Shown: piece by piece, positions 44,611 to 59,501 of the stretch
How positions within the stretch are numbered: position 1 is the stretch's first letter
How the letters are laid out: the number at the start of each line of letters is the position of its first letter
Assembly (NCBI RefSeq): GCF_000963925.1
Contig: NZ_BAMV01000011.1
Span: 186,001-250,000, forward strand
Direction: 5' to 3'
Source of the DNA: Acetobacter cibinongensis
Lineage (GTDB): Bacteria > Pseudomonadota > Alphaproteobacteria > Acetobacterales > Acetobacteraceae
Length of the DNA: 64,000 bases
Notes under the pieces: generated by a model
Told to the model about the DNA's origin: nothing
What the model saw: the letters and a program-made list of their open reading frames with translations, nothing else
Databases searched by the model: none
Program-made: the position numbers and the translations under genes

Positions 44611-46134
44611 GTGAGCATGACAAAAACAGACATAACGGCACAGGCTGACGACAGCATCCTGTCCCTTTCCCTCCGCCAGCCCCCCGCCAATATTGAAGCC
44701 GAACAGGCTTTGCTGGGGGCGTTGTTGACCAATAACCGCGCCTATGACCGCGTATCAGACTTTCTGACCGGGGCGCATTTTGCCAATCAGGTGAATGGCC
44801 GTGTTTACGATGCCATAGCCCGCCGTATTGAAAACGGCCAACTGGCAGACCCCGTAACCCTGCGTGCAGAGCTGGAAAACTCCGGTGTGCTGACAGAGGT
44901 AGGCGGCATGGCCTATCTGGGCAAATTGCTGACCTCCATGGTGGGGATCATCAATGCAGGTGACTATGGCCGCGCTATTCACGATGCGTGGATCCGGCGG
45001 CAGTTGATTGATATTGGGGAAGGTGTTGTCAACAACGCGTTTGGCGCAACATCCGCCCTGTCCGGCCCAGACCAGATTGCCGCAGGGGAAGAGGCTCTGT
45101 TCCGGCTTGCCACAGAAAAAGGGCAGGACGGCGGTTTTGTTGACTTTGACAGGGCTCTGACCAACGCCATTGCTACGGCCGAAAAAGCGTTCCAGAACGA
45201 CGGCCATGTTGCAGGGTTGACGTCTGGCCTGCGCGATCTGGATAAAAAAACCGGTGGATTGCATCCGTCCGATCTTCTTATTCTGGCAGGTCGTCCCGCC
45301 ATGGGTAAAACTGCTCTGGCAACCAAGGTCGCGTTTTCTGCTGCACGCGCGTTGTTGCAGGAAGCGGAAGACACAGGGCCGGGTGTACAGCCAAAGGGCA
45401 CCGTTGCGATCTTCTCGCTCGAAATGTCAGCCGAACAGTTGGCCGGGCGTATTCTGTCCGAGCAGGCCGAGGTGTCGGGTGAGCGTATTCGTCGTGGTGA
45501 CATCGGGCAGAAGGAATTTGACCGCTTTGTGCGTGTCAGCCGCGAATTGGCCCGCCTGCCGCTGGTCATTGATGATACACCAGCTATCTCCCTTTCCGCC
45601 ATGCGAACCCGCTGCCGCCGCTTAAAGCGTACACGTGGTTTAAGCTTGGTGGTGGTGGACTATTTGCAGCTTATGCGTCCCTCTGTCGGGACAAGGCCAG
45701 AAAGCCGCGTTCTTGAAATTTCCATGATTACGCAGGGTCTTAAAGCAATTGCAAAGGAACTTGAGGTGCCGGTTATTGCCCTCTCCCAGCTCTCTCGTCA
45801 GGTGGAATCACGCGAAGATAAACGCCCCATGCTGTCTGATCTTCGTGAATCCGGCTCTATTGAGCAGGACGCAGACGCCGTGATGTTTGTGTACCGTGAC
45901 GAATATTACCTGCAACAACGTATGCCTAAGGAAACAGCCTTTGATTCCATGGAAAAATACGGAGCAGCATTGGACGACTGGCAGCGTAAAATGGGTCTTG
46001 TGCATAACAAGGCTGAGCTGATTTTGGAAAAACAGAGGCATGGTCCCACAGGCACAGTGCATCTGTTCTTTGAAGGCGAATATACGCGCTTTGCTGATTT
46101 GGAAACACAACACGAAGATCAGCCCCACCATTAA
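44611..46134 (+). CDS. dnaB: Replicative DNA helicase DnaB
   Basis: At 507 aa it has the N-terminal domain (about 20-120; PPANIEAEQALLGALL), linker and RecA-like helicase domain with Walker A AGRPAMGKTALA, then VVVDYLQLM and LSQLSRQVESREDKRP. The start is GTG 44611, with an ATG two codons later. No intein is seen inside it. It ends shortly before a hairpin at the junction with the minus-strand Hint gene. Confidence 0.96.
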   Translation: MSMTKTDITAQADDSILSLSLRQPPANIEAEQALLGALLTNNRAYDRVSDFLTGAHFANQVNGRVYDAIARRIENGQLADPVTLRAELENSGVLTEVGGMAYLGKLLTSMVGIINAGDYGRAIHDAWIRRQLIDIGEGVVNNAFGATSALSGPDQIAAGEEALFRLATEKGQDGGFVDFDRALTNAIATAEKAFQNDGHVAGLTSGLRDLDKKTGGLHPSDLLILAGRPAMGKTALATKVAFSAARALLQEAEDTGPGVQPKGTVAIFSLEMSAEQLAGRILSEQAEVSGERIRRGDIGQKEFDRFVRVSRELARLPLVIDDTPAISLSAMRTRCRRLKRTRGLSLVVVDYLQLMRPSVGTRPESRVLEISMITQGLKAIAKELEVPVIALSQLSRQVESREDKRPMLSDLRESGSIEQDADAVMFVYRDEYYLQQRMPKETAFDSMEKYGAALDDWQRKMGLVHNKAELILEKQRHGPTGTVHLFFEGEYTRFADLETQHEDQPHH

Positions 46135-46150: not shown

Positions 46151-46206
46151 GACAACGTTTTGAATGGGGAGTGATGCACACTGTCTATGTGCATCACTCA
46201 GTTGTC
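46151..46206. terminator. Strong hairpin between convergent dnaB and Hint gene
   Basis: A perfect 12-bp stem GAGTGATGCACA / TGTGCATCACTC (46169-46180 with 46188-46199), loop CTGTCTA. An outer GACAAC (46151-46156) also pairs with GTTGTC (46201-46206). It has no T tract on either side, so it may be a processing or Rho-stabilised 3' end shared by both genes. Confidence 0.6.
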
Positions 46207-46209
46207 GGC

Positions 46210-47898
46210 TTAAGCGGTCAGTTTTTTGCGGCGGTTTTTTTCTTGCAGGCTATAAGGGCCAGCCGCCAGTACTTCTACGGTAAGCAAGCTAAAGCCTTTA
46301 AGTGTTCCCTCGCCAAGAGACAGAGTGGCATCCCCGTTTGTCCAGCGGCAGGATGAAACTTGCTGCCCATGCCATCCCTGTAGATCCTGCTTGTCCAGAT
46401 GGCTGGTGATGGAAATTTTCTTGTTAGAGCCTAGTAGGGTAACAGCGCCGACCAGCACCCCAAGCTTACGGCGGTCATCTACAAACGGACCAATCGTGTC
46501 ACAAGGGCGGCTTGTGCGTGAAACCAGACGAACAGTTTTGATGTTGGCTGGCAACATGAAAACAACGGTATGATCTGTTGTGCGGATCTTGCGGATAATC
46601 TGACCGTTGTCAGTGACAATATGCAGGTCGGATTCCGGCGTGAGGGGGCGGGAGGGAGTCTGCTGGTGGTTGTCCGTGACGGTAAGGGAGCGCTGTTTTA
46701 GGGTGTGGAAAATTGTTTCCACAAAGTTGCGTTCAACACACAGGGGTGCGGCAGCATCTTTCTCCCATGAGCTCATTTTACCGTGCAAAGTCACAACTTT
46801 GCCTGGCTGCTGAAATGACAACCTATTGCCAGTATCAAGATAGCTTTCCGTCAGCATACCATTCGCTGTGATGACTGACTGATGCTCAGTCTCAATATGA
46901 TAGTAGTTATAAGACTGTATGGTTTTATCATAAAAAATGGATATGCCGTTAACTAGCATCCGTGCTGGAATAAATTTGCCCTCAAAAAACAAGCAATGTT
47001 CTGATGTAATCAGCAAATCTTTGTAAGGGACGCCATCGGAGAGGGCACCTTTGAGAATACGCACGGGATAACCTGATTGATCATCCGGCAGGTTAGGTTG
47101 TGCATTAACATGGCCAGTCCCAACCCAGACAACCCGACGCGTTACGTCCTTGTTGTTCTGCCAGTCAAAAGTGACGACCTCATCGCCAATTTGCAACGTT
47201 TCAACGGCCATATCTCCTTCAGGCGTGCGCAGCATGCTGCCACCCAGAAAGCAGACAATGACAGTGTCTGCCGTAAGGTAGGTTTTGCCATTCACTGATT
47301 TGACAATAAAGGTTGTACCTTCGTTTTCAGCCGGGAGCTGAAATGATGAAGTGCCTGAAATAGCCTGACCTTCGTCAGTAAGTGTGTAGACACCGTTAGT
47401 ATAAACATAATTGTCTGCTACAAGGCCGTCTATTATAATAGTATCTCCTTTTTGTATATTGGTAATGTAACCAATAATGCTAGCAGTTGTTCCTGCCGCA
47501 ATTTCGACTGTGCCGCCTGTTCCATCAAACTGGATGAGGCCCGCAGTGGTTGTGGCGTACCCCCCCAATATAAGCGTCCCGCCGTTGCTGACCACAACTT
47601 TGGAACCATTGGCGATAGCGTCTGCGTTGGTTAATGTTAAATTACCATTAACTGTTACAGTGGCAGGATGATCCGTATTGCCAACAGTCCAGCCCTTGCC
47701 ATTAATGCTGGTGCCATCAGCAATAACAACGTTTACGCCGGACGTTTCACCAGAGACGGTGTCACCACTCTGCTCGTCAGTAATGGTGATCGTGCTGTTT
47801 TCTGGTGCTGTGTAAGTTCCGTTTGTGCCCCAGCCAGAATCAGGAGAAGACCCATAATTCAGGGAGACAGAAGGGTTTGCGGGAAGCTTTCTGGCCAT
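46210..47898 (-). CDS. Hint-domain (hedgehog/intein-type autoprocessing) protein
   Basis: A 562-aa protein in three parts. Residues 1-210 are G/T/N-rich beta-repeat sequence (VNGNLTLTNADAIANGSK, VVVSNGGTLILGG), like surface or autotransporter passengers; there is no clear signal peptide. Residues 212-365 form a Hint_2-type domain: nucleophile Cys216 in VIVCFLGGSMLRTPEGD, the block-B TSEH at 298-301, and the ending HIETEHQSVITANGMLTESYL. Residues 385-555 form a C-terminal domain (VRLVSRTSRPCDTIGPFVDDRR, then GWHGQQ, RWTNGDATLSL) that recurs, as I recall, in Acetobacteraceae Hint proteins. Self-cleavage N-terminal to Cys216 is expected from the family. It has no established biological role. Confidence 0.8.
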   Translation of the reverse strand: MARKLPANPSVSLNYGSSPDSGWGTNGTYTAPENSTITITDEQSGDTVSGETSGVNVVIADGTSINGKGWTVGNTDHPATVTVNGNLTLTNADAIANGSKVVVSNGGTLILGGYATTTAGLIQFDGTGGTVEIAAGTTASIIGYITNIQKGDTIIIDGLVADNYVYTNGVYTLTDEGQAISGTSSFQLPAENEGTTFIVKSVNGKTYLTADTVIVCFLGGSMLRTPEGDMAVETLQIGDEVVTFDWQNNKDVTRRVVWVGTGHVNAQPNLPDDQSGYPVRILKGALSDGVPYKDLLITSEHCLFFEGKFIPARMLVNGISIFYDKTIQSYNYYHIETEHQSVITANGMLTESYLDTGNRLSFQQPGKVVTLHGKMSSWEKDAAAPLCVERNFVETIFHTLKQRSLTVTDNHQQTPSRPLTPESDLHIVTDNGQIIRKIRTTDHTVVFMLPANIKTVRLVSRTSRPCDTIGPFVDDRRKLGVLVGAVTLLGSNKKISITSHLDKQDLQGWHGQQVSSCRWTNGDATLSLGEGTLKGFSLLTVEVLAAGPYSLQEKNRRKKLTA

Positions 47899-47992
47899 AT
47901 TTCAAACCTTTATAAAATCTTAATTTCCGCAAAGTTTTTTTTGGTTTTTTGGCTATCAAAATTAACTTTCTTATTGCTTCCGAAACTTGTGT

Positions 47993-48043
47993 AGTATAAG
48001 GCTGTTAACGAGTTGTTAACCAAATGAGAGACGTTTTGTCTCT
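47993..48043. promoter_or_regulatory. Palindrome cluster between divergent Hint and recombinase genes
   Basis: Two GTTAAC sites (48004-48009 and 48015-48020) are separated by five bases, followed by AGAGAC-N5-GTCTCT (48027-48043). Divergent -10-like hexamers overlap at 47993-48000 (TATACT on the minus strand, TATAAG on the plus strand), and TTGGTT on the minus strand lies 19 bases from its -10 with the GTTAAC pair in the spacer. Such a layout suits an operator, or the crossover site of the adjacent recombinase. Confidence 0.4.
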
Positions 48044-48068
48044 TGCATAAATCAAGAATTACGCAAGA

Positions 48069-48092
48069 AACTCCCCTTTGTTATTGGGAGTT
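48069..48092 (+). promoter_or_regulatory. Hairpin masking the recombinase ribosome binding site
   Basis: AACTCCC (48069-48075) is complementary to GGGAGTT (48086-48092) with a ten-base loop. The right arm contains GGGAG, the only good Shine-Dalgarno for the TTG start at 48099, so folding would block translation. Confidence 0.45.
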
Positions 48093-48098
48093 TATGTC

Positions 48099-48692
48099 TT
48101 GGCCAACACAGATCAGTTGTATGATAAAATTGGATATGCCCGGGTTAGCACTGTGGGGCAGACTCTAGAGCTTCAACTGAAAACTCTCCAAAGCTATGGG
48201 TGCCGTAAAATCTATCGGGAAAAAGCAAGTGGTGCCAATTCCGATAGAGTAGAACTAAAAAAATTATTAGAAAAATTAAAAGAAAACCAAATAATTGTTG
48301 TTACAAGGCTAGATAGGATTGCGCGAAGTACTTTTGATTTATTTGCAATAGTGAAAGAAATTACAGATAAAAAAGCACAATTTTATTCCTTGGCGGAGCC
48401 GTGGACTGATACATCAACTAGTACGGGCCGCCTTATGCTTGCCGTTCTTGGTGGGTTAGGCGACGTAGAGCGTGATTTGATCCGTAACCGCACGGCAGAA
48501 GGGCGGGCTAGGGCAATGGAGCAGGGGAAAAAAATGGGGCGCCCTCCACGCATTACAGAGGGACAAAAAAAGGAAATACTTAAAAGGCGTGAGAATGGCG
48601 AATCTTTAAGCGCGCTTAGTCTTGCATTTGGGGTTAGCGAAAGCACCGTCTCACGGATTGGAAACGGGAAATATCTTAATATTAAAAAATAA
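48099..48692 (+). CDS. Serine recombinase (resolvase/invertase family)
   Basis: About 197 aa. The catalytic N-terminal domain has IGYARVST (Ser17 nucleophile, with the usual Tyr and Arg), VVTRLDRIARST and GRLMLAVLGGLGDVERDLIRNRT; a helix-turn-helix of the Hin type closes the protein (NGESLSALSLAFGVSESTVSRI). No ATG is available: the best start is TTG 48099 after GGGAG at eight bases, although the frame opens further upstream. Codon and base use is far more AT-rich than in neighbours, indicating acquisition. Substrate site and cargo are unknown; no transposase accompanies it. Confidence 0.88.
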   Translation: MANTDQLYDKIGYARVSTVGQTLELQLKTLQSYGCRKIYREKASGANSDRVELKKLLEKLKENQIIVVTRLDRIARSTFDLFAIVKEITDKKAQFYSLAEPWTDTSTSTGRLMLAVLGGLGDVERDLIRNRTAEGRARAMEQGKKMGRPPRITEGQKKEILKRRENGESLSALSLAFGVSESTVSRIGNGKYLNIKK

Positions 48693-48699
48693 TTAGACT

Positions 48700-48720
48700 C
48701 AGAATTTATTATTAATTCTG
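48700..48720 (+). terminator. Hairpin after the recombinase gene
   Basis: CAGAATT, seven bases, AATTCTG: a perfect 7-bp stem eight bases after the stop, followed by a mildly T-rich stretch. It is weak as a terminator because of low GC. Confidence 0.4.
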
Positions 48721-48915: not shown

Positions 48916-51378
48916 CTACGACTGAGACGGCGCGAGAGAATTGGGCACGGTGATAGGAATATCGTGCTGCTGAAAAGCCTGCCACAAATCAAATAAGGCT
49001 TCACTTCGCACTTTTGCAACGTCCAGTCCTTGCCGGGCACGGGCGGTGCCGGTCAACAACGCAGACCCATCAGTAATGGCTGTAATACTGGCGGTTGGTG
49101 CAAGTTGTGGATCTACGTTTTCACTGGCGGCCAGAGTTTCCACCATAACCTGCATGGCTTTCTGCAAATCAGATGAAAACGGAAGTTGCAGAACAGTTGT
49201 GAAAACTCCCGGCTTTTCAGCGCGTGTAGCGTTACGCACAGCAGAGGTAATGAACTGGGAGTTCGGGACAATCATGGTCGATCCATCCGCCAGTTTGATG
49301 TTGGTGGAACGCACGCTAATACGGGCAACTTCACCATGCGCACCGGCAATATCCACAACATCCCCAATGGAGACAGGGCGTTCCGCCATAAGAATAATGC
49401 CGGAGACGAAGTTCTGCACGATGGATTGCAGGCCAAAACCAATACCGACCGACAGGGCACTGACAACCCATGTCATGCTCTTCATGGTAACACCCAGCGC
49501 AGACGCCATGCTGAGGCCAATTAAAATCCAAGCAGCGTAGGTAATCACGTTCAGGATGGAGCTTTGTGCCCCAATATTGAGACGCGTTGTCGGGAAGAAG
49601 CGCTGCATAAACCATGTTTTGACGATTTTGATGGCGTAGTGCCCGATAACCGGCAAAATGGCACACAACAAGAGTGTGTCGAGCGAAATGGAAAAGCTGT
49701 CATCTGCTGGTTTCCCGCTCTGTCCACGGAAAATGTACAGAATGCGGTTGCCAACTTGTGCGGGGTCAAAGTCTGCCCCTGCCGTTGCAACAGATGAGGC
49801 AAGAATAAGCAGGAAAACGCTAATCAGCCCGGGAATAACAACGCTTGCCTGGTCCACAAGCCGGGCAGGTAGCCCAAGCTGCACCAAATGGTGCCCTATG
49901 GGGCCTTCAGACGGGAAAACGCTGCTTCCCAAAGCCGTTGCCAGTAGCGAGATCAGAAGCAGGCCCGTCAGGGTAATGGCCATGACGGAAATCCACGAAA
50001 TAATCGTATAGGCCAACGGAATATAGCCGGACAGCACCGCCAGCCAGCAGACGATAGAGACTGTCATGGCCAGCGTGCGGAGCAGCGGCGCGACCGTTGG
50101 GGGAGCGCCTGTTCCTTCTTCCGCAGAAATGCGGAGCTGCCGGGGGATCGCAAACAGCAGCGGGCTGACGGCAAGCGTATAAAGCCCGTCAAAAAACTGG
50201 ACATGCAGAATGCTCAGGCCGCTCTGGGTGTCTACGTACCGTAAAATACCCCGAATAATAAGAGCAACAGCAAACCAGATGGGGAAGAGGCGTAGATGAT
50301 GCGCCACCCGGTCGGGCATGGGGAAGACACGCCATTCTGCTTTGCGAGAAAGCAGGCTAATGCCTAACTCCACCACAAACCCGCACAGCGGAACCTGTGC
50401 CGCGACCATTTCAGCCAGATTGTCGAGGTCTTCACCCAGGGCGGGGTTGTCGAGCGCAATGCCCGCCCAGGCCAGACGGAACGCAAAAGCCCAGGCGACG
50501 ATACTTATAACTGCACACAAAACTGTCGCGGCAATTGGCCTGATGCGGCCGGTGGGCAGAATGCGCGCCACCAAAATACGTACTGGCTTATGGCAGAAAA
50601 AATACGCTGTCAGCAAAAGAGCGGAAAGCAGGAATGCCCCAAGAGTAATAAGGGCGTGTCGGCCAGTAAAGGCGTGCGCCAGAACAGCACGAGCCTCCTG
50701 CATCAGGTCGTTCGCACTGCTGGACGTTGCGGCGGACTCACTGCTCAGCTGAGACCAGAAGGTCACGCCAAGAGGGGATGGAAAGCGCTGCGTCAGGGTT
50801 GCTTGCTGGATGGCTGTACCATGTTGGCGTAACTCACCAACAAGTTGCTGTGCTTCAACCTGATACAGTTTCAGCCGGGTAATACGGTTGGAAATATCGC
50901 GCTGTTTTGCGGTCAGAGCCTTACGTTGGGCGGTAATGGCCGCAGGTTCAGCAGGGTCATCCTTGCCAGGTGGTTTGCCCAGCACGTCCAGAAAATTCTG
51001 ATAGACAGACTCATAAGGTTTGATTTTTGCAGCCAGAGCGTCGGTTTGTGAAGAAACCGCAGTTGCCCGTTTGAGCAGGGAGGCAAATGCCGCCGCATTA
51101 TCAGTCTTGCTATAGGGTTTTAAACTATCCTGATATATCGAATGAATTTCAGCCCCGATCTTCGCGAGCGTGTCATCAGAGACCGCGAGGGAGATGTCTG
51201 AAATAAGCGGCGTAACGGGCTGTGCATCAGCAGGGGATGCTGCGGCCGGAGACGGGGTATCCGCGCCAAATGCCTGAGGGGCTGAAAGAGGCAGGGCGGA
51301 AAGAAGCCCACCCCACAGAAAGATCATGGCAGGAAGAAGTGCGCGCAGCATCGATTTAGACATTAATTTTTTCTTCAC
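48916..51378 (-). CDS. Large mechanosensitive channel of the MscS family
   Basis: At 820 aa it has a signal peptide or first segment (residues 10-38), a periplasmic helical domain (about 60-230, like DUF3772-type regions), roughly ten membrane segments, and a C-terminal MscS core: the TM3-like SVGIGFGLQSIVQNFVSGIILMAERP, then the beta domain VSIGDVVDIAGAHGEVARI and MIVPNSQFITSAVRN. It probably relieves hypo-osmotic pressure or acts in envelope signalling. A start at ATG 51363 is also possible. Confidence 0.88.
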   Translation of the reverse strand: MKKKLMSKSMLRALLPAMIFLWGGLLSALPLSAPQAFGADTPSPAAASPADAQPVTPLISDISLAVSDDTLAKIGAEIHSIYQDSLKPYSKTDNAAAFASLLKRATAVSSQTDALAAKIKPYESVYQNFLDVLGKPPGKDDPAEPAAITAQRKALTAKQRDISNRITRLKLYQVEAQQLVGELRQHGTAIQQATLTQRFPSPLGVTFWSQLSSESAATSSSANDLMQEARAVLAHAFTGRHALITLGAFLLSALLLTAYFFCHKPVRILVARILPTGRIRPIAATVLCAVISIVAWAFAFRLAWAGIALDNPALGEDLDNLAEMVAAQVPLCGFVVELGISLLSRKAEWRVFPMPDRVAHHLRLFPIWFAVALIIRGILRYVDTQSGLSILHVQFFDGLYTLAVSPLLFAIPRQLRISAEEGTGAPPTVAPLLRTLAMTVSIVCWLAVLSGYIPLAYTIISWISVMAITLTGLLLISLLATALGSSVFPSEGPIGHHLVQLGLPARLVDQASVVIPGLISVFLLILASSVATAGADFDPAQVGNRILYIFRGQSGKPADDSFSISLDTLLLCAILPVIGHYAIKIVKTWFMQRFFPTTRLNIGAQSSILNVITYAAWILIGLSMASALGVTMKSMTWVVSALSVGIGFGLQSIVQNFVSGIILMAERPVSIGDVVDIAGAHGEVARISVRSTNIKLADGSTMIVPNSQFITSAVRNATRAEKPGVFTTVLQLPFSSDLQKAMQVMVETLAASENVDPQLAPTASITAITDGSALLTGTARARQGLDVAKVRSEALFDLWQAFQQHDIPITVPNSLAPSQS

Positions 51379-55741: not shown

Positions 55742-57130
55742 GTGGCTAAAAAACCGTCCCGCCAGTTTGTGTGCCGCAATTGTGGGACGGCTTACCCCAA
55801 GTGGGTTGGCCAGTGTGAAGCCTGCGGTGAGTGGAACACGCTGGAAGAAGAAACAGTTGAGCCGCTGGCAGCCTCCACAGCTTCGGGTTCTGCAAAAGGT
55901 CGGCGGATCAAACTGGAGGGGTTGGACGGTATAGCCAAGCCACCGCCCCGCATTGAGACGACCATTGCAGAGTTTGACCGCGTACTAGGGGGCGGCCTCG
56001 TACCGGCCTCTGTGGTGCTGGTAGGGGGCGACCCCGGAATTGGTAAATCGACCCTGCTGCTGCAAGCCGCGTGCCGCCTGGCGGGCAATGGCGAGCGCGT
56101 TCTCTATATCTCCGGGGAAGAAGCTGTTGATCAGATCCGCCTGCGCGCCCTGCGTCTTGGGGTGGGGACGACAAAACTCGACCTCGCGGCTTCCATTAAC
56201 GTAGCCGATATCGTCTCAACCCTTGAGGCAGAGACAGACGTTAAAGCTGTGATTATCGACTCTATCCAGACCATGTGGCTGGAAACCGTGGCCAGTGCGC
56301 CCGGGACGGTCTCGCAGGTCAGGGCGTGTGCGTTTGAGCTTATCCGGCTGGCTAAACGGCGAGGGTTCAGCCTTATTCTTGTGGGGCATGTCACCAAAGA
56401 AGGGGCGTTGGCTGGCCCTCGTGTGCTGGAACACATGGTGGATGCCGTGATGTATTTTGAAGGCGACCGGGGGCATCAGTTCCGCATTTTGCGGGCGGCC
56501 AAAAACCGCTTTGGCGCTACGGATGAGATTGGCGTTTTTGCCATGACAGATCGAGGGTTGGAAGAAGTCAGCAACCCGTCAGCATTGTTTTTGGCAGAGC
56601 GGCGGGGAAACATTGCCGGGTCTGCTGTTTTTGCAGGCCTTGAAGGGACACGGCCTGTACTGTTGGAAGTGCAGGCGCTGCTCTCTCCCAAAAGTGGCGA
56701 TGGCGCACCACGCAGGGCTGTTGTGGGGTGGGATACAGGGCGGTTGTCCATGCTGCTGGCCGTGTTGGAAACCCGATGCGGCCTTAAATTATCGGGCATG
56801 GATGTTTATCTGAACTTTGCCGGTGGGTTGAAAGTGGCGGAGCCAGCAGCCGACCTTGCTGTGGCAGCCGCGCTTATTTCCGCGGCCAGTGGCGTCCCCA
56901 CAAGCTCTGGCGAAGTCTATTTTGGTGAAGTCGGTTTGTCAGGTGAGGTCCGGCAGGTCGCGCAGGCAGATGCCCGTTTGAAAGAAGCGGCCAAACTGGG
57001 TTTTGATCAGGCAACCTTGCCTCGGCGCGTTGCGCGGGGGACTGTCCGCAATAAGCCGCCCGAAGGTCTGGCCCTGCGTGAGTTGGGGCATTTGTCTGAT
57101 TTGATTGGCGCAGACATGGACGCTGAATAA
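55742..57130 (+). CDS. radA: DNA repair protein RadA
   Basis: At 462 aa it is a RecA-like helicase that extends recombination intermediates. The C4 zinc finger (CRNCGTAYPKWVGQCEACGEW) is at residues 11-30, Walker A GGDPGIGKST near 97-105, the KNRFG motif is present, and the Lon-like C-terminal domain includes VYLNFAGGLKV. The start is GTG 55742. Confidence 0.96.
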   Translation: MAKKPSRQFVCRNCGTAYPKWVGQCEACGEWNTLEEETVEPLAASTASGSAKGRRIKLEGLDGIAKPPPRIETTIAEFDRVLGGGLVPASVVLVGGDPGIGKSTLLLQAACRLAGNGERVLYISGEEAVDQIRLRALRLGVGTTKLDLAASINVADIVSTLEAETDVKAVIIDSIQTMWLETVASAPGTVSQVRACAFELIRLAKRRGFSLILVGHVTKEGALAGPRVLEHMVDAVMYFEGDRGHQFRILRAAKNRFGATDEIGVFAMTDRGLEEVSNPSALFLAERRGNIAGSAVFAGLEGTRPVLLEVQALLSPKSGDGAPRRAVVGWDTGRLSMLLAVLETRCGLKLSGMDVYLNFAGGLKVAEPAADLAVAAALISAASGVPTSSGEVYFGEVGLSGEVRQVAQADARLKEAAKLGFDQATLPRRVARGTVRNKPPEGLALRELGHLSDLIGADMDAE

Positions 57131-57197
57131 GCCAGCAGGCGATAAAAGTGGATTGTCAGGGCGTGTGAAATCAGTATAGTGCGCGTCACACGCTTAC

Positions 57198-57271
57198 GCG
57201 GATGTAGTTCAATGGTAGAACGGCAGCTTCCCAAGCTGCATACGGGGGTTCGATTCCCCTCATCCGCTCCA
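57198..57271 (+). tRNA. tRNA-Gly (anticodon CCC)
   Basis: A 74-base cloverleaf with CCA encoded. Acceptor stem GCGGATG / CATCCGC, anticodon stem GCAGC / GCTGC with loop TTCCCAA (anticodon CCC), and T arm GGGGT TCGATTC CCCTC-type. It lies 67 bases after radA on the same strand. Confidence 0.95.
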
Positions 57272-57303
57272 GCCTGTTTTTCCCTAAAAACACACAGTTA
57301 TAT

Positions 57304-57440
57304 GGCTCTTGTCAGTGTTGTCGTGCGCTGAAGAGCGCGCTCACCTGCGTGTGAGAATACGCCCTCAGATTGGCGTCTTAAAAAATGGCTTAGTGCCTAA
57401 TGTTCCACGCTGGATGGCGCATTCCTTCCAGACAAGAGCC
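57304..57440 (+). ncRNA. Candidate structured RNA closed by a 10-bp stem
   Basis: GGCTCTTGTC (57304-57313) and GACAAGAGCC (57431-57440) are perfectly complementary across 117 bases. Inside, in order: GTGCGCT/AGCGCGC with GAAG tetraloop (57323-57340), TCAC/GTGA (57341-57354), ACGCC/GGCGT (57359-57376), and TCCA/TGGA nested in AATG/CATT (57399-57423). That number of consecutive hairpins inside a closing stem suggests a structured RNA. The strand is assumed, and there is no recognised family. Confidence 0.35.
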
Positions 57441-57914
57441 TTTGGGATATGGCACTTAGAGTTTTGTATCAAATTTATGTGACGTTTCTTCTTTGTAAAT
57501 ATTCAAAATCTTTTATTTTATTTCAAAATCGAAATAGAGTCTTTTCACCCAAGAAAATTCCAAAAACACTTTCGCGCAGACTACAAACGCAAAAAAAATT
57601 AAGAATTTTTGGGCATAGAATCGTTTATAATTCTCAATTCCGGCCATGAAACGATCACGATGTATTGAGATATATTTTGATTTATTTATAATGTTACAAA
57701 ATGCATCACCTTGTATTTGGGTGAATCCGTAGAAAAATCGCCTTGAAAATAATATATCCTCATGTAGAGTTTATATTACGTTGAAGATAATATATGGTCT
57801 ACTTTGTTCGTGATTGTAACCATGCTCAGGAATTTCTTGAGCAGGAGGAGTGAAGCCGCTTTTTGCATTGGGTACCTCACAAAAATAACAAGAATCATGA
57901 GGGAGGGCATAGGC

Positions 57915-57968
57915 ATGGAGAACGCACAGTTGAGGGCAGGCGTGTCAGATCAGGCAGGGAGACGCTGA
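57915..57968 (+). CDS. Upstream mini-ORF before the outer membrane protein gene
   Basis: ATG 57915 to TGA 57966-57968, 17 codons (MENAQLRAGVSDQAGRR), preceded by GGGAGGGC, the best ribosome site in the leader. The downstream gene starts six bases after the stop and has only a weak site of its own, so reinitiation or coupling is possible. Confidence 0.3.
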   Translation: MENAQLRAGVSDQAGRR

Positions 57969-57974
57969 AGAGTT

Positions 57975-59501
57975 ATGCGTCGTTTAGTGTATTCAAGCCT
58001 GGTGCTCGGTGCTGTTGCATCCCTGTCGTCTTACGCGAAGGCGGAAAAAACGCTGGTATCCGTTGGGGGGCTAACGGTGCAGGGTGGTCTGGACATTGGT
58101 GGCGCGGCCTTTTACCTGCCCGATGTCAATTTTGGCGCGGGGTCTTACGCTCCCCACTCTGATGGCCAGTATAAACGTACCAAAAGCCCTGCATCTGGCG
58201 AGTTATATGGCAAGCCTATACTGACAGGTCGGTGGGACTGGGGGCACGGCGTTGCCGTTATTGGCACGGCATCCGCGCTGGGTGCAGCAACACTTGGGCA
58301 TGGGGACGGACAAATCATGTCCCAAACCTCAGGGTCGCCACACTCCATTTATCTTGAAGAAGCCAACATTGGCCTGACCATGCCTGTGCGGATTGCCCAC
58401 GCCCCACATACCCTCACAGTGCTCGGTGGCAGGCAGGCTTTTATTGTTGATGATGGTTTTTTGATTGGTAAGGGCACCTATAGTGCAGGCCGAAGAGGGG
58501 CATGGTGGTATGCGCCGCGTTTTGCCTTCTCTGGGCCGGGCGTTATCAAACTGGAAGGCCAGTCTGTCAGGGCAGATGCCTTTATGCTGGAGAGCAATAC
58601 GGATAACGATATTGACAGAGGCTATGACAGGCCAAAAACTAAGTTTGTGGGTTTTGATGTCAGTTGGTTTACCAGCACACCCGGCGGGCATGGCGGGAGT
58701 GTGTATGCGGAGCGTGCCTCTTATGTAACGCTCACATATTTTCATGTGCGGGATGCAGATACCTCGTCAGGATATGATCGCTCAGCCCGCGCAGACCGTA
58801 ACGGCATGAATGTAGCATCCCTCAGTTGGGGTGGGACATTGTTCCCTGTAAAAGCACTTGGAATTTCAAAAAATTTCACATTTTACGGGAGCTTCGTTGC
58901 TGAACAGAATAGCCATGCGGGCAATGGCTACAAATCTGTAGAAGCATACGGCATGTATTTTGAACCGGGATACCGGTTTACGATGCTGCCATGGCAACCA
59001 AAGATTTTTTACCGCTACACGCAGTTTGGTGGCGGTAAAAACCCTAACGGCACAGTCAAGAGAAGTTACGATACGTTCTTCCTGTACGATGGCAAACGCT
59101 ATTGCTACGGCGGGTATTGGCCGGGTGAAATTGTAGGTATGTATCTTGCGCCTCTCTCAAACCTCAAGGTGCAGCAGTTTGACCTGACCGTGACGGCGCC
59201 CTTTCATCTCATGAAACCGGAAGATGGCTTGAAGCTTGGGGTGCATTATTACAATCTGTCCTTGTTGCACCCATCAGGCGCAGGGTTGCGGAATGTGGCC
59301 AACCATATTTCTGACGAGGTTGATGTCACGGCAGAATACGCAATGAATGCAACTACATCCGCAGCGCTTGCTGGAGGGATGGCTTTTTCCGGACCATCAG
59401 GCAAGGCGCTTGCACAAGCCGGATTGCCCGGGGGGTACCCTATGCCAAAAATAAGCAGGCATTCCGGTATTCTGGAATTCTATTTCTACAAACACTTCTG
59501 A
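57975..59501 (+). CDS. Outer membrane beta-barrel protein, alginate-export/porin-like
   Basis: At 508 aa it has a signal peptide (MRRLVYSSLVLGAVASLSS, cleavage near AKA at residue 23) and a body of alternating-hydrophobicity strands ending in EFYFYKHF with a terminal Phe, as in outer membrane barrels. GGRQAFIVDDGFLIGKG and the later pattern of DEVDVTAEYAM resemble the alginate-export (AlgE-like) barrel family. The substrate is unknown; the neighbouring amino-acid permease is separated by 79 bases. Confidence 0.75.
   Translation: MRRLVYSSLVLGAVASLSSYAKAEKTLVSVGGLTVQGGLDIGGAAFYLPDVNFGAGSYAPHSDGQYKRTKSPASGELYGKPILTGRWDWGHGVAVIGTASALGAATLGHGDGQIMSQTSGSPHSIYLEEANIGLTMPVRIAHAPHTLTVLGGRQAFIVDDGFLIGKGTYSAGRRGAWWYAPRFAFSGPGVIKLEGQSVRADAFMLESNTDNDIDRGYDRPKTKFVGFDVSWFTSTPGGHGGSVYAERASYVTLTYFHVRDADTSSGYDRSARADRNGMNVASLSWGGTLFPVKALGISKNFTFYGSFVAEQNSHAGNGYKSVEAYGMYFEPGYRFTMLPWQPKIFYRYTQFGGGKNPNGTVKRSYDTFFLYDGKRYCYGGYWPGEIVGMYLAPLSNLKVQQFDLTVTAPFHLMKPEDGLKLGVHYYNLSLLHPSGAGLRNVANHISDEVDVTAEYAMNATTSAALAGGMAFSGPSGKALAQAGLPGGYPMPKISRHSGILEFYFYKHF

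Follow-up and report, generated by a model that had tools for sequence, protein, structure and literature searches.

A putative phase-variation module of a serine recombinase and a Hint_2-domain gene in Acetobacter

The stretch of DNA analyzed here, 64,000 nucleotides of Acetobacter cibinongensis (contig NZ_BAMV01000011.1; hereafter the window), contains a divergent pair formed by a gene for a Hint_2-domain protein of 562 amino acids (46210-47898, minus strand; PF13403, E 2.5e-31) and a gene for a small Gin/Hin-like serine recombinase (48099-48692, plus strand, from a likely TTG start; PF00239, E 5e-39). We consider it very likely that this pair represents a phase-variation module, in which the recombinase inverts an intergenic segment with a putative promoter that would face either the Hint gene or the recombinase, with an exchange of passenger regions in addition. 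The argument draws chiefly on equivalent loci of relatives, where inversion between the cores of two recombination sites happens and half-sites of different loci join.

Recombination sites and inversion among relatives

An alignment of the intergenic regions revealed a conserved inverted repeat, which could be resolved into two sites of 26 bp each with a 12-2-12 layout. In the window, site A (TTTGCGGAAATT.AA.GATTTTATAAAG; 47908-47933, minus strand, core 47920-47921) extends with its outer half into the Hint gene's ribosome-binding region, and site B (CTTGCATAAATC.AA.GAATTACGCAAG; 48042-48067, plus strand, core 48054-48055) lies upstream of the recombinase. The two sites are inverted relative to each other, both have AA cores, their centers are 134 bp apart, and they were the sole such pair found in a scan of the entire window. 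Between the cores lies a GC-poor segment of 132 bp (47922-48053), predicted to be invertible on the basis of the inversion of the equivalent segment in relatives.

Such inversion was observed between the complete plasmids NZ_CP042809 of A. oryzoeni (G026:C2) and pSH1 of A. pomorum (NZ_CP023190), which have near-identical flanks (1999 of 2000 positions on the Hint side and 700 of 700 on the recombinase side) around an inverted interior. Of the 134 bp between the cores, 133 match when flipped as against 48 when compared directly, and the inner half-sites are swapped with the outer half-sites unchanged. Likewise, the interior is inverted between A. orleanensis and A. malorum, where the collinear flanks extend over 3312 nt (85%) and 1535 nt (93%), and the interiors of A. 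senegalensis contig C112 and A. persici contig C226 are 96% alike when flipped and 58% when read directly. The inverted forms that an earlier note on this DNA had proposed looking for among relatives thus do exist, with breakpoints at the two recombination sites. Its suggestion that the recombinase might switch or exchange the neighboring gene holds in so far as both inversion and exchange are seen in relatives; what inverts, however, is the 132-135 bp of intergenic DNA and not the gene. The outcome that it had set against this suggestion, namely fixed gene order, vertical inheritance and no inversion, was not what we found in the relatives.

The ends of several contigs fall at the same sites. 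In A. senegalensis, a single inner half-site bounds both the contig with the Hint gene (C80) and that with the recombinase (C122), each of which ends at its first base, contigs C181 and C22 of A. tropicalis likewise end at a common inner half-site, and contig C152 of A. pomorum begins at such a half-site base. Given that an assembler would break at these places if both orientations were present in the reads, the ends may reflect the coexistence of both orientations in one culture, with each contig pair presumably representing one locus. However, a repeat common to several loci might also break an assembly. We further noted that contig ends close to Hint genes (both ends of L225 and an end of L234) have a short sequence in common, TCTGTGAGATTTCCGCGT, which is perhaps the end of an insertion sequence.

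The pairing of the recombinase with a Hint gene is not a matter of chance. In a scan of 49 genomes of the genus, relatives of the recombinase (about 60-74% identity) were repeatedly found to adjoin Hint genes. We counted 47 recombinase frames in the window and 40 fetched stretches, a total that includes some damaged copies as well as one gene split into two pieces (L137). A Hint gene lies divergently beside 38 of them, another 5 are no more than 950 nt from a contig end, and the remaining 4 make up two head-to-head pairs of recombinases. Recombinase rows of at least 60% identity that were left out of this count are G024:C18, G031:C62, G047:C5, G047:C39, G010:C23 and G025:C2, all of which except the last were used for the contig-end and Hint comparisons.

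Two inverted sites were detected in 40 of the 47 intergenic entries, with L145 and L147 each counted from both sides and site B of L136 read on the layout strand instead of the best-scoring one. In 36 of these 40 entries the spacing is 134-137 bp, with 134 bp seen in 6, 135 in 11, 136 in 17 and 137 in 2; the remainder have spacings of 125 bp (1), 107 bp (1) and 16 bp (2, being one locus read from each side). Shorter spacings of 124-126 bp are found in Gluconacetobacter sacchari (124), A. farinalis (125) and plasmid pGOX3 (126). The classes of about 135 and about 125 bp differ by approximately one helical turn, which would fit sites facing each other across a short loop. A strict search pattern, consisting of two inverted inner halves, was matched at 15 places in 13 of the 49 genus genomes, with no match in a backward-read control.

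Serine recombinases require matched cores for ligation. The core pairs in 38 entries, for which both L145 entries were dropped, are AG/AG in 24, AA/AA in 10, AC/AC in 3 and GG/AG in one, the last resembling a one-base deletion. Cores thereby agree in 37 of the 38 entries (shuffled mean 18.7, maximum 29), an agreement that is partly inherited, given that the recombinase tree calls for 6 changes in the A cores and 5 in the B cores. A second switch is present in the genome of the window (G000:C86:12359-12519, in L167), where AC/AC sites 135 bp apart adjoin a Hint gene that runs into the contig end and a recombinase-like frame interrupted by six stops. When 19 stretches around the other Hint genes of this genome were searched, as far as they reached, for targets that might be used in trans, a site pair was found only at C86.

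The window recombinase belongs, by its sequence, with the Gin/Hin invertases. It has the catalytic domain and C-terminal helix-turn-helix of that group within about 190 residues, the latter matched by HTH_7 at E 1.4e-4 and 22.4 bits, slightly below the cut-off of 23.8. A GYARVS motif is invariant in 15 of 15 aligned recombinases, and among 21 PDB matches of the recombinase profile the DNA-invertases 4m6f and 3uj3 are the top two.

The invertible segment and its predicted states

Within the segment, a directional promoter-like element (TTATTGC ... TATAAG; 47971-48000, plus strand), whose assignment is uncertain, would face the recombinase in the orientation sequenced, and a small hairpin, terminator-like on the minus strand, occupies 48027-48043 directly before site B. 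Stronger folding at the site-B-side end than at the other end is a feature of the family: the folding energy of the oriented interiors is -10.5 kcal/mol at the downstream end, compared with -2.4 at the opposite end and -6.7 for shuffled sequence. To examine directionality, 36 oriented interiors were reduced to 22 representatives below 75% identity. Of the 22 representatives, 21 have a TTG in the same 16-nt stretch, as against 2 when the opposite strand is read (shuffled mean 7.6, maximum 16). The first of these figures is inflated because the interiors had been oriented by mutual similarity. Altogether 10 of 38 interiors were assigned the reverse orientation, the assignment being uncertain for the most diverged ones (L127, L131, L136, L142_12274 and L144).

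These features can be accommodated in a mechanism in which the serine recombinase would act on the two inverted 26-bp sites and invert the 132-135 bp of intergenic DNA. With its one-way promoter-like element and 5' hairpin, the segment would drive the Hint gene in one orientation and the recombinase in the other. As the segment comprises nearly all the DNA between the divergent genes, the promoters of both should lie inside it. The state in which the recombinase is off would be stable until background recombinase flips the segment back. We infer that this recombinase is the agent, that the element it moves is a promoter and that expression follows its orientation; the window copy would also have to be active, and a role for the Hint protein at the cell surface, like its self-cleavage, is presumed. 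Comparison with the family places the window, with uncertainty, in the recombinase-facing state, in which the Hint gene is predicted to be off.

Besides the inherited share of the core agreement and the way in which the interiors were oriented, several observations weigh against this interpretation. The DNA of the window itself displays one orientation only, inversion being seen in relatives. The exact double half-site pattern is confined to the 13 genus genomes mentioned above, with the window's own locus unmatched. An independent-pairs test of core agreement had too few pairs for significance, and cores are mismatched at two site-pair places, L181 and L191; the recombinase adjoining L181 is only 34% alike, and none was found at L191. 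E. coli-type promoter scores of the 38 interiors are mostly no better than those of shuffled sequences, and the one above-shuffled match in the window (8.6 versus 6.0 +- 1.2) faces the Hint gene, the score toward the recombinase being 3.6; the state of the window could therefore be the opposite of that predicted. In Acidomonas methanolica (L243), neither a Hint gene nor a site pair was found near a recombinase that is 70% identical. Finally, all starts available to the window recombinase are TTG, and its copy could therefore be weak. Many relatives have ATG, although some have only TTG or GTG. Read against the relatives, the likely start is the TTG at 48099, and not the 48078 given in the list of open reading frames.

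As a separate observation, one family of interiors (L122, L134, L150, L152, L155 and L158) contains a short frame with a ribosome-binding-like sequence on the presumed transcribed side. The frame, for which visual reading gives MEQVGLTSLA in A. persici, ends in the inner half-site and is possibly a leader peptide.

Exchange of partners and passengers between loci

Half-site joins were seen in several relatives. In A. pasteurianus NBRC 101655, a stretch of 1840 nt that matches the Hint gene with its interior from locus 1 of A. oryzifermentans at 100% is joined to the locus-2 recombinase, and the match starts a single base outside the site-B core. In A. pomorum LHT 2458 (L147:3494-4970), two recombinases face each other around the locus-1 interior, and 2521 of 2521 nt on the side of recombinase 1 are identical to A. 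oryzifermentans. A. oryzoeni (L145:6598-7951) has another head-to-head recombinase pair, with sites 16 bp apart. No Hint gene lies between the recombinases of either pair, and both pairs are apparently products of inter-locus recombination.

The Hint protein of the window consists of a variable passenger (residues 1-215), a Hint domain beginning at Cys216 (CFLGGS) and a conserved C-terminal region. The domain has the N-terminal Cys and a TxxH block, with Cys216, Thr298 and His301 invariant in 14 of 14 aligned Hint proteins. No His-Asn was seen at the domain end on inspection of Hint alignment A2 by eye, and the protein was on this account not assigned to the A-type bacterial intein-like (BIL) domains. 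A structure model of the protein was weak (mean predicted local distance difference test score 59), and a fold search with it gave no match at E <= 0.001; the four best matches, at E about 0.01, were BIL domains (2lwy, 6y75, 6tmm). The model thus serves only to support the Hint assignment.

For comparison of passengers, 61 Hint genes were split at the catalytic Cys codon, with L032 and L159 being one gene fetched twice. In 113 gene pairs the Hint and C-terminal parts are at least 76% identical, and 63 of these pairs have no passenger match at E < 1e-5. For instance, L144 and L233 have Hint parts that are 99.4% identical and passengers of 458 and 239 residues that are 31% alike. Within one genome, L129 and L130 agree in their recombinase-switch blocks (97.6% over 817 nt) and in their Hint-downstream blocks (97.1% over 2990 nt), while the passengers are 22% alike. 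The passenger of the window is nearest to that of A. farinalis (74%), with the Hint parts of the two only 51% alike. Exchange of partners as well as of passengers between loci is thus seen in relatives.

In all 8 of the compared pairs in which the Cys codon was located, homology starts at most 20 nt from it, and likewise in L129/L130; at the opposite edge of the passenger, it ends at site A in orthologous loci (A. orleanensis and A. malorum). No recombination site was found at the Cys codon in 63 sequences, where the best score was 6.0 as against about 20-38 for most true sites, and a passenger cassette flanked by sites was hence rejected. The edge at the Cys codon thus probably stems from homologous recombination in the conserved Hint part. 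Recombination of the same kind is suggested by an inversion of roughly 12 kb that distinguishes A. pasteurianus 386B from A. oryzifermentans. Given that half-sites can be joined and that the Hint and C-terminal parts of paralogues are nearly identical, partners and passengers would be traded by inter-locus recombination, with half-sites of different loci being brought together.

These observations also bear on a different explanation, namely that the main role of the system is to exchange passengers between Hint genes and that the intergenic inversion is a by-product. The many pairs with similar Hint parts and no passenger match, along with the homology edges at the Cys codon and at site A, are what it would lead one to expect. 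We nevertheless regard it as unlikely, because the fixed spacing and the inverted local sites are what local inversion needs, and homologous recombination within the Hint part, of the kind suggested by the 12-kb inversion, can also exchange passengers.

Genomic setting and comparison with known systems

Further carriers of both recombinase and Hint gene include A. senegalensis, A. persici, A. pomorum, A. orleanensis, A. malorum, A. farinalis, A. cerevisiae, A. indonesiensis, Gluconacetobacter sacchari and Gluconobacter oxydans 621H, the last on plasmid pGOX3. Seven Hint-recombinase loci and one broken recombinase were found in the stretches examined of G025, whose contigs match plasmid records of A. 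oryzifermentans. The genome of the window has 24 Hint_2 matches, including fragments, and one intact recombinase of this subfamily; Hint proteins alone are therefore common there. Across the 24 places of this Hint_2 family (G000, 3.1 Mb), the site pair was observed at only two. Outside Acetobacter, 39 loci with recombinase relatives were compared, and a Hint gene together with a site pair was present in 2 (G. sacchari and a Gluconobacter metagenome-assembled genome); the other 37 have neither, 7 of them with less than 600 nt upstream. In one of these seven, from Asaia platycodi, the contig begins inside a site-like sequence. The 37 include the Acidomonas methanolica locus L243. The strict pattern matched 5 of 299 genomes of the family, all of the genus; it overlooks variants, including the window's own locus, and the module is carried by pGOX3, G. 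sacchari and the Gluconobacter metagenome-assembled genome. Several plasmids contain a second recombinase gene in the same direction after the switch recombinase and directly before parA (L322 5709-6326, L324 4818-5414, L325 5750-6346), which is probably a plasmid resolvase.

In the window, the pair lies between two ordinary chromosomal genes, dnaB (44611-46134) on the Hint-gene side and an MscS-type gene (48916-51378, minus strand) on the recombinase side, as the earlier note had described. The lower GC content that it reported for the recombinase was also confirmed, at 0.428 versus 0.547 for dnaB and 0.543 for mscS; the Hint gene has 0.486, the intergenic DNA 0.320 and the whole window 0.557. 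It had further stated that no tRNA gene flanks the pair, and the sole tRNA found in the window indeed lies at 57198. This tRNA-Gly gene (57198-57271) coincides with a local drop in GC to 0.439 (57001-58000), and the gene after it (57975-59501) has the look, by eye, of an outer-membrane porin.

We compared 29 other dnaB loci of the genus, each over up to about 1.5 kb downstream. The order dnaB-MscS was seen in 15, within about 230 nt in 12 and at about 1 kb in 3, and MscS was not reached in 14. None of the 29 has a Hint gene in the range scanned, so among the 30 genomes the pair occurs at dnaB-MscS only in that of the window, bearing out the presence and absence that the earlier note had thought worth examining. 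Given this and its low GC, the pair looks like accessory DNA at this position. Precise insertion ends could not be placed in any of three species compared, because their intergenic DNA is too diverged. Around the whole pair only short repeats (12-17 nt at 82-92%) were found, which are taken for chance.

The accessory character of the locus raises the question of whether the recombinase is instead the enzyme of a mobile element, with the Hint gene as cargo and the sites as element ends. Consistent with this, no Hint gene lies within about 1.5 kb downstream at the 29 other dnaB loci, and of the 58 plasmid records that have a relative at E <= 1e-40, 41 are classed as mobilizable or conjugative, although not all of the latter carry a Hint gene. 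However, the sites enclose intergenic DNA only and not the gene pair, only the short repeats were found around the pair, and close relatives display inversion and not excision; we thus consider this explanation quite improbable. Similarly improbable is that the sites, which are indeed located at the start regions of both genes, serve as operators for autoregulation of the recombinase and that inversions are rare accidents between short repeats, since exact inversion and half-site joins occur at the cores in near-identical plasmids, and core agreement together with contig ends at half-sites favors recombination over binding alone.

Returning to a module for phase variation by promoter inversion, a more far-reaching form of it would be a combinatorial system in acetic acid bacteria resembling antigenic variation, for and against which we find the balance about even. 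One directional promoter would flip between the variable Hint protein and its own invertase; the invertase would then be made solely while Hint is off, and the Hint-on state would stabilize itself. Within a single genome and on transferable plasmids there would be several independent copies, differing in core class, and through interchangeable half-sites they would trade the passengers that precede a constant intein-like processing domain. Phase and antigenic variation have mostly been studied in pathogens and gut Bacteroidales; the same switching logic would here operate in bacteria of food, vinegar and the Drosophila gut, through a serine-invertase switch that is very compact and would govern the expression of its own invertase, and cell-to-cell differences are predicted within such populations. 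Furthermore, Hint_2 proteins would gain a regulatory context and a passenger/constant-part architecture that are directly testable. Among the literature matches listed, which mostly did not cover subscription papers, one paper mentions a Hint protein in this group and describes a point mutation in such a protein, of unknown function, in a cellulose-overproducing mutant (PMC11999647). Among the same matches there was no description of such phase variation or DNA inversion, or of a Hint switch, in acetic acid bacteria.

The nearest mechanistic parallels are Hin of the Salmonella flagellar system and Gin of phage Mu. The likeness extends to a small serine recombinase with a C-terminal helix-turn-helix, inverted 26-bp sites of 12-2-12 layout (as in the hix sites of Hin), a matching two-base core, and inversion between the cores, seen here in relatives. 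However, the invertible segments of Hin and Gin are about 1-3 kb and carry genes, whereas the present segment of 132-135 bp is non-coding, has the invertase outside it, and is held at a near-fixed spacing of about 13 helical turns. The invertible promoters of gut Bacteroidales, such as the Mpi system and other invertons, are likewise intergenic segments that are enclosed by short inverted repeats and precede members of a variable gene family. They differ in that each locus here has its own adjacent invertase, which the segment would drive. According to a survey of hCom2, the invertases found close to invertons are in general non-regulatable, which makes their control by inverton promoters unlikely (PMC11892184).

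The fim/mrp switches are alike in the inversion of one short segment beside its recombinase, with a promoter there and a putative promoter here. Switches of that type use tyrosine recombinases and target fimbrial operons, in contrast to the serine recombinase and Hint_2 proteins of the present system. BIL and other Hint_2 proteins share with the protein described here the Hint_2 domain and variable sequence beside a conserved Hint part, and a review places BIL domains in hypervariable regions (PMC7765530). The present protein departs from them in having no visible His-Asn end and a long conserved C-terminal region, and in its predicted control by a DNA switch, of which none was reported for BIL or Hint_2 proteins among the literature matches listed. 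What sets this system apart is a tiny segment of near-fixed length with a private serine invertase that it would drive, present in multiple copies and carried on plasmids, and with Hint_2 targets that have exchangeable passengers.

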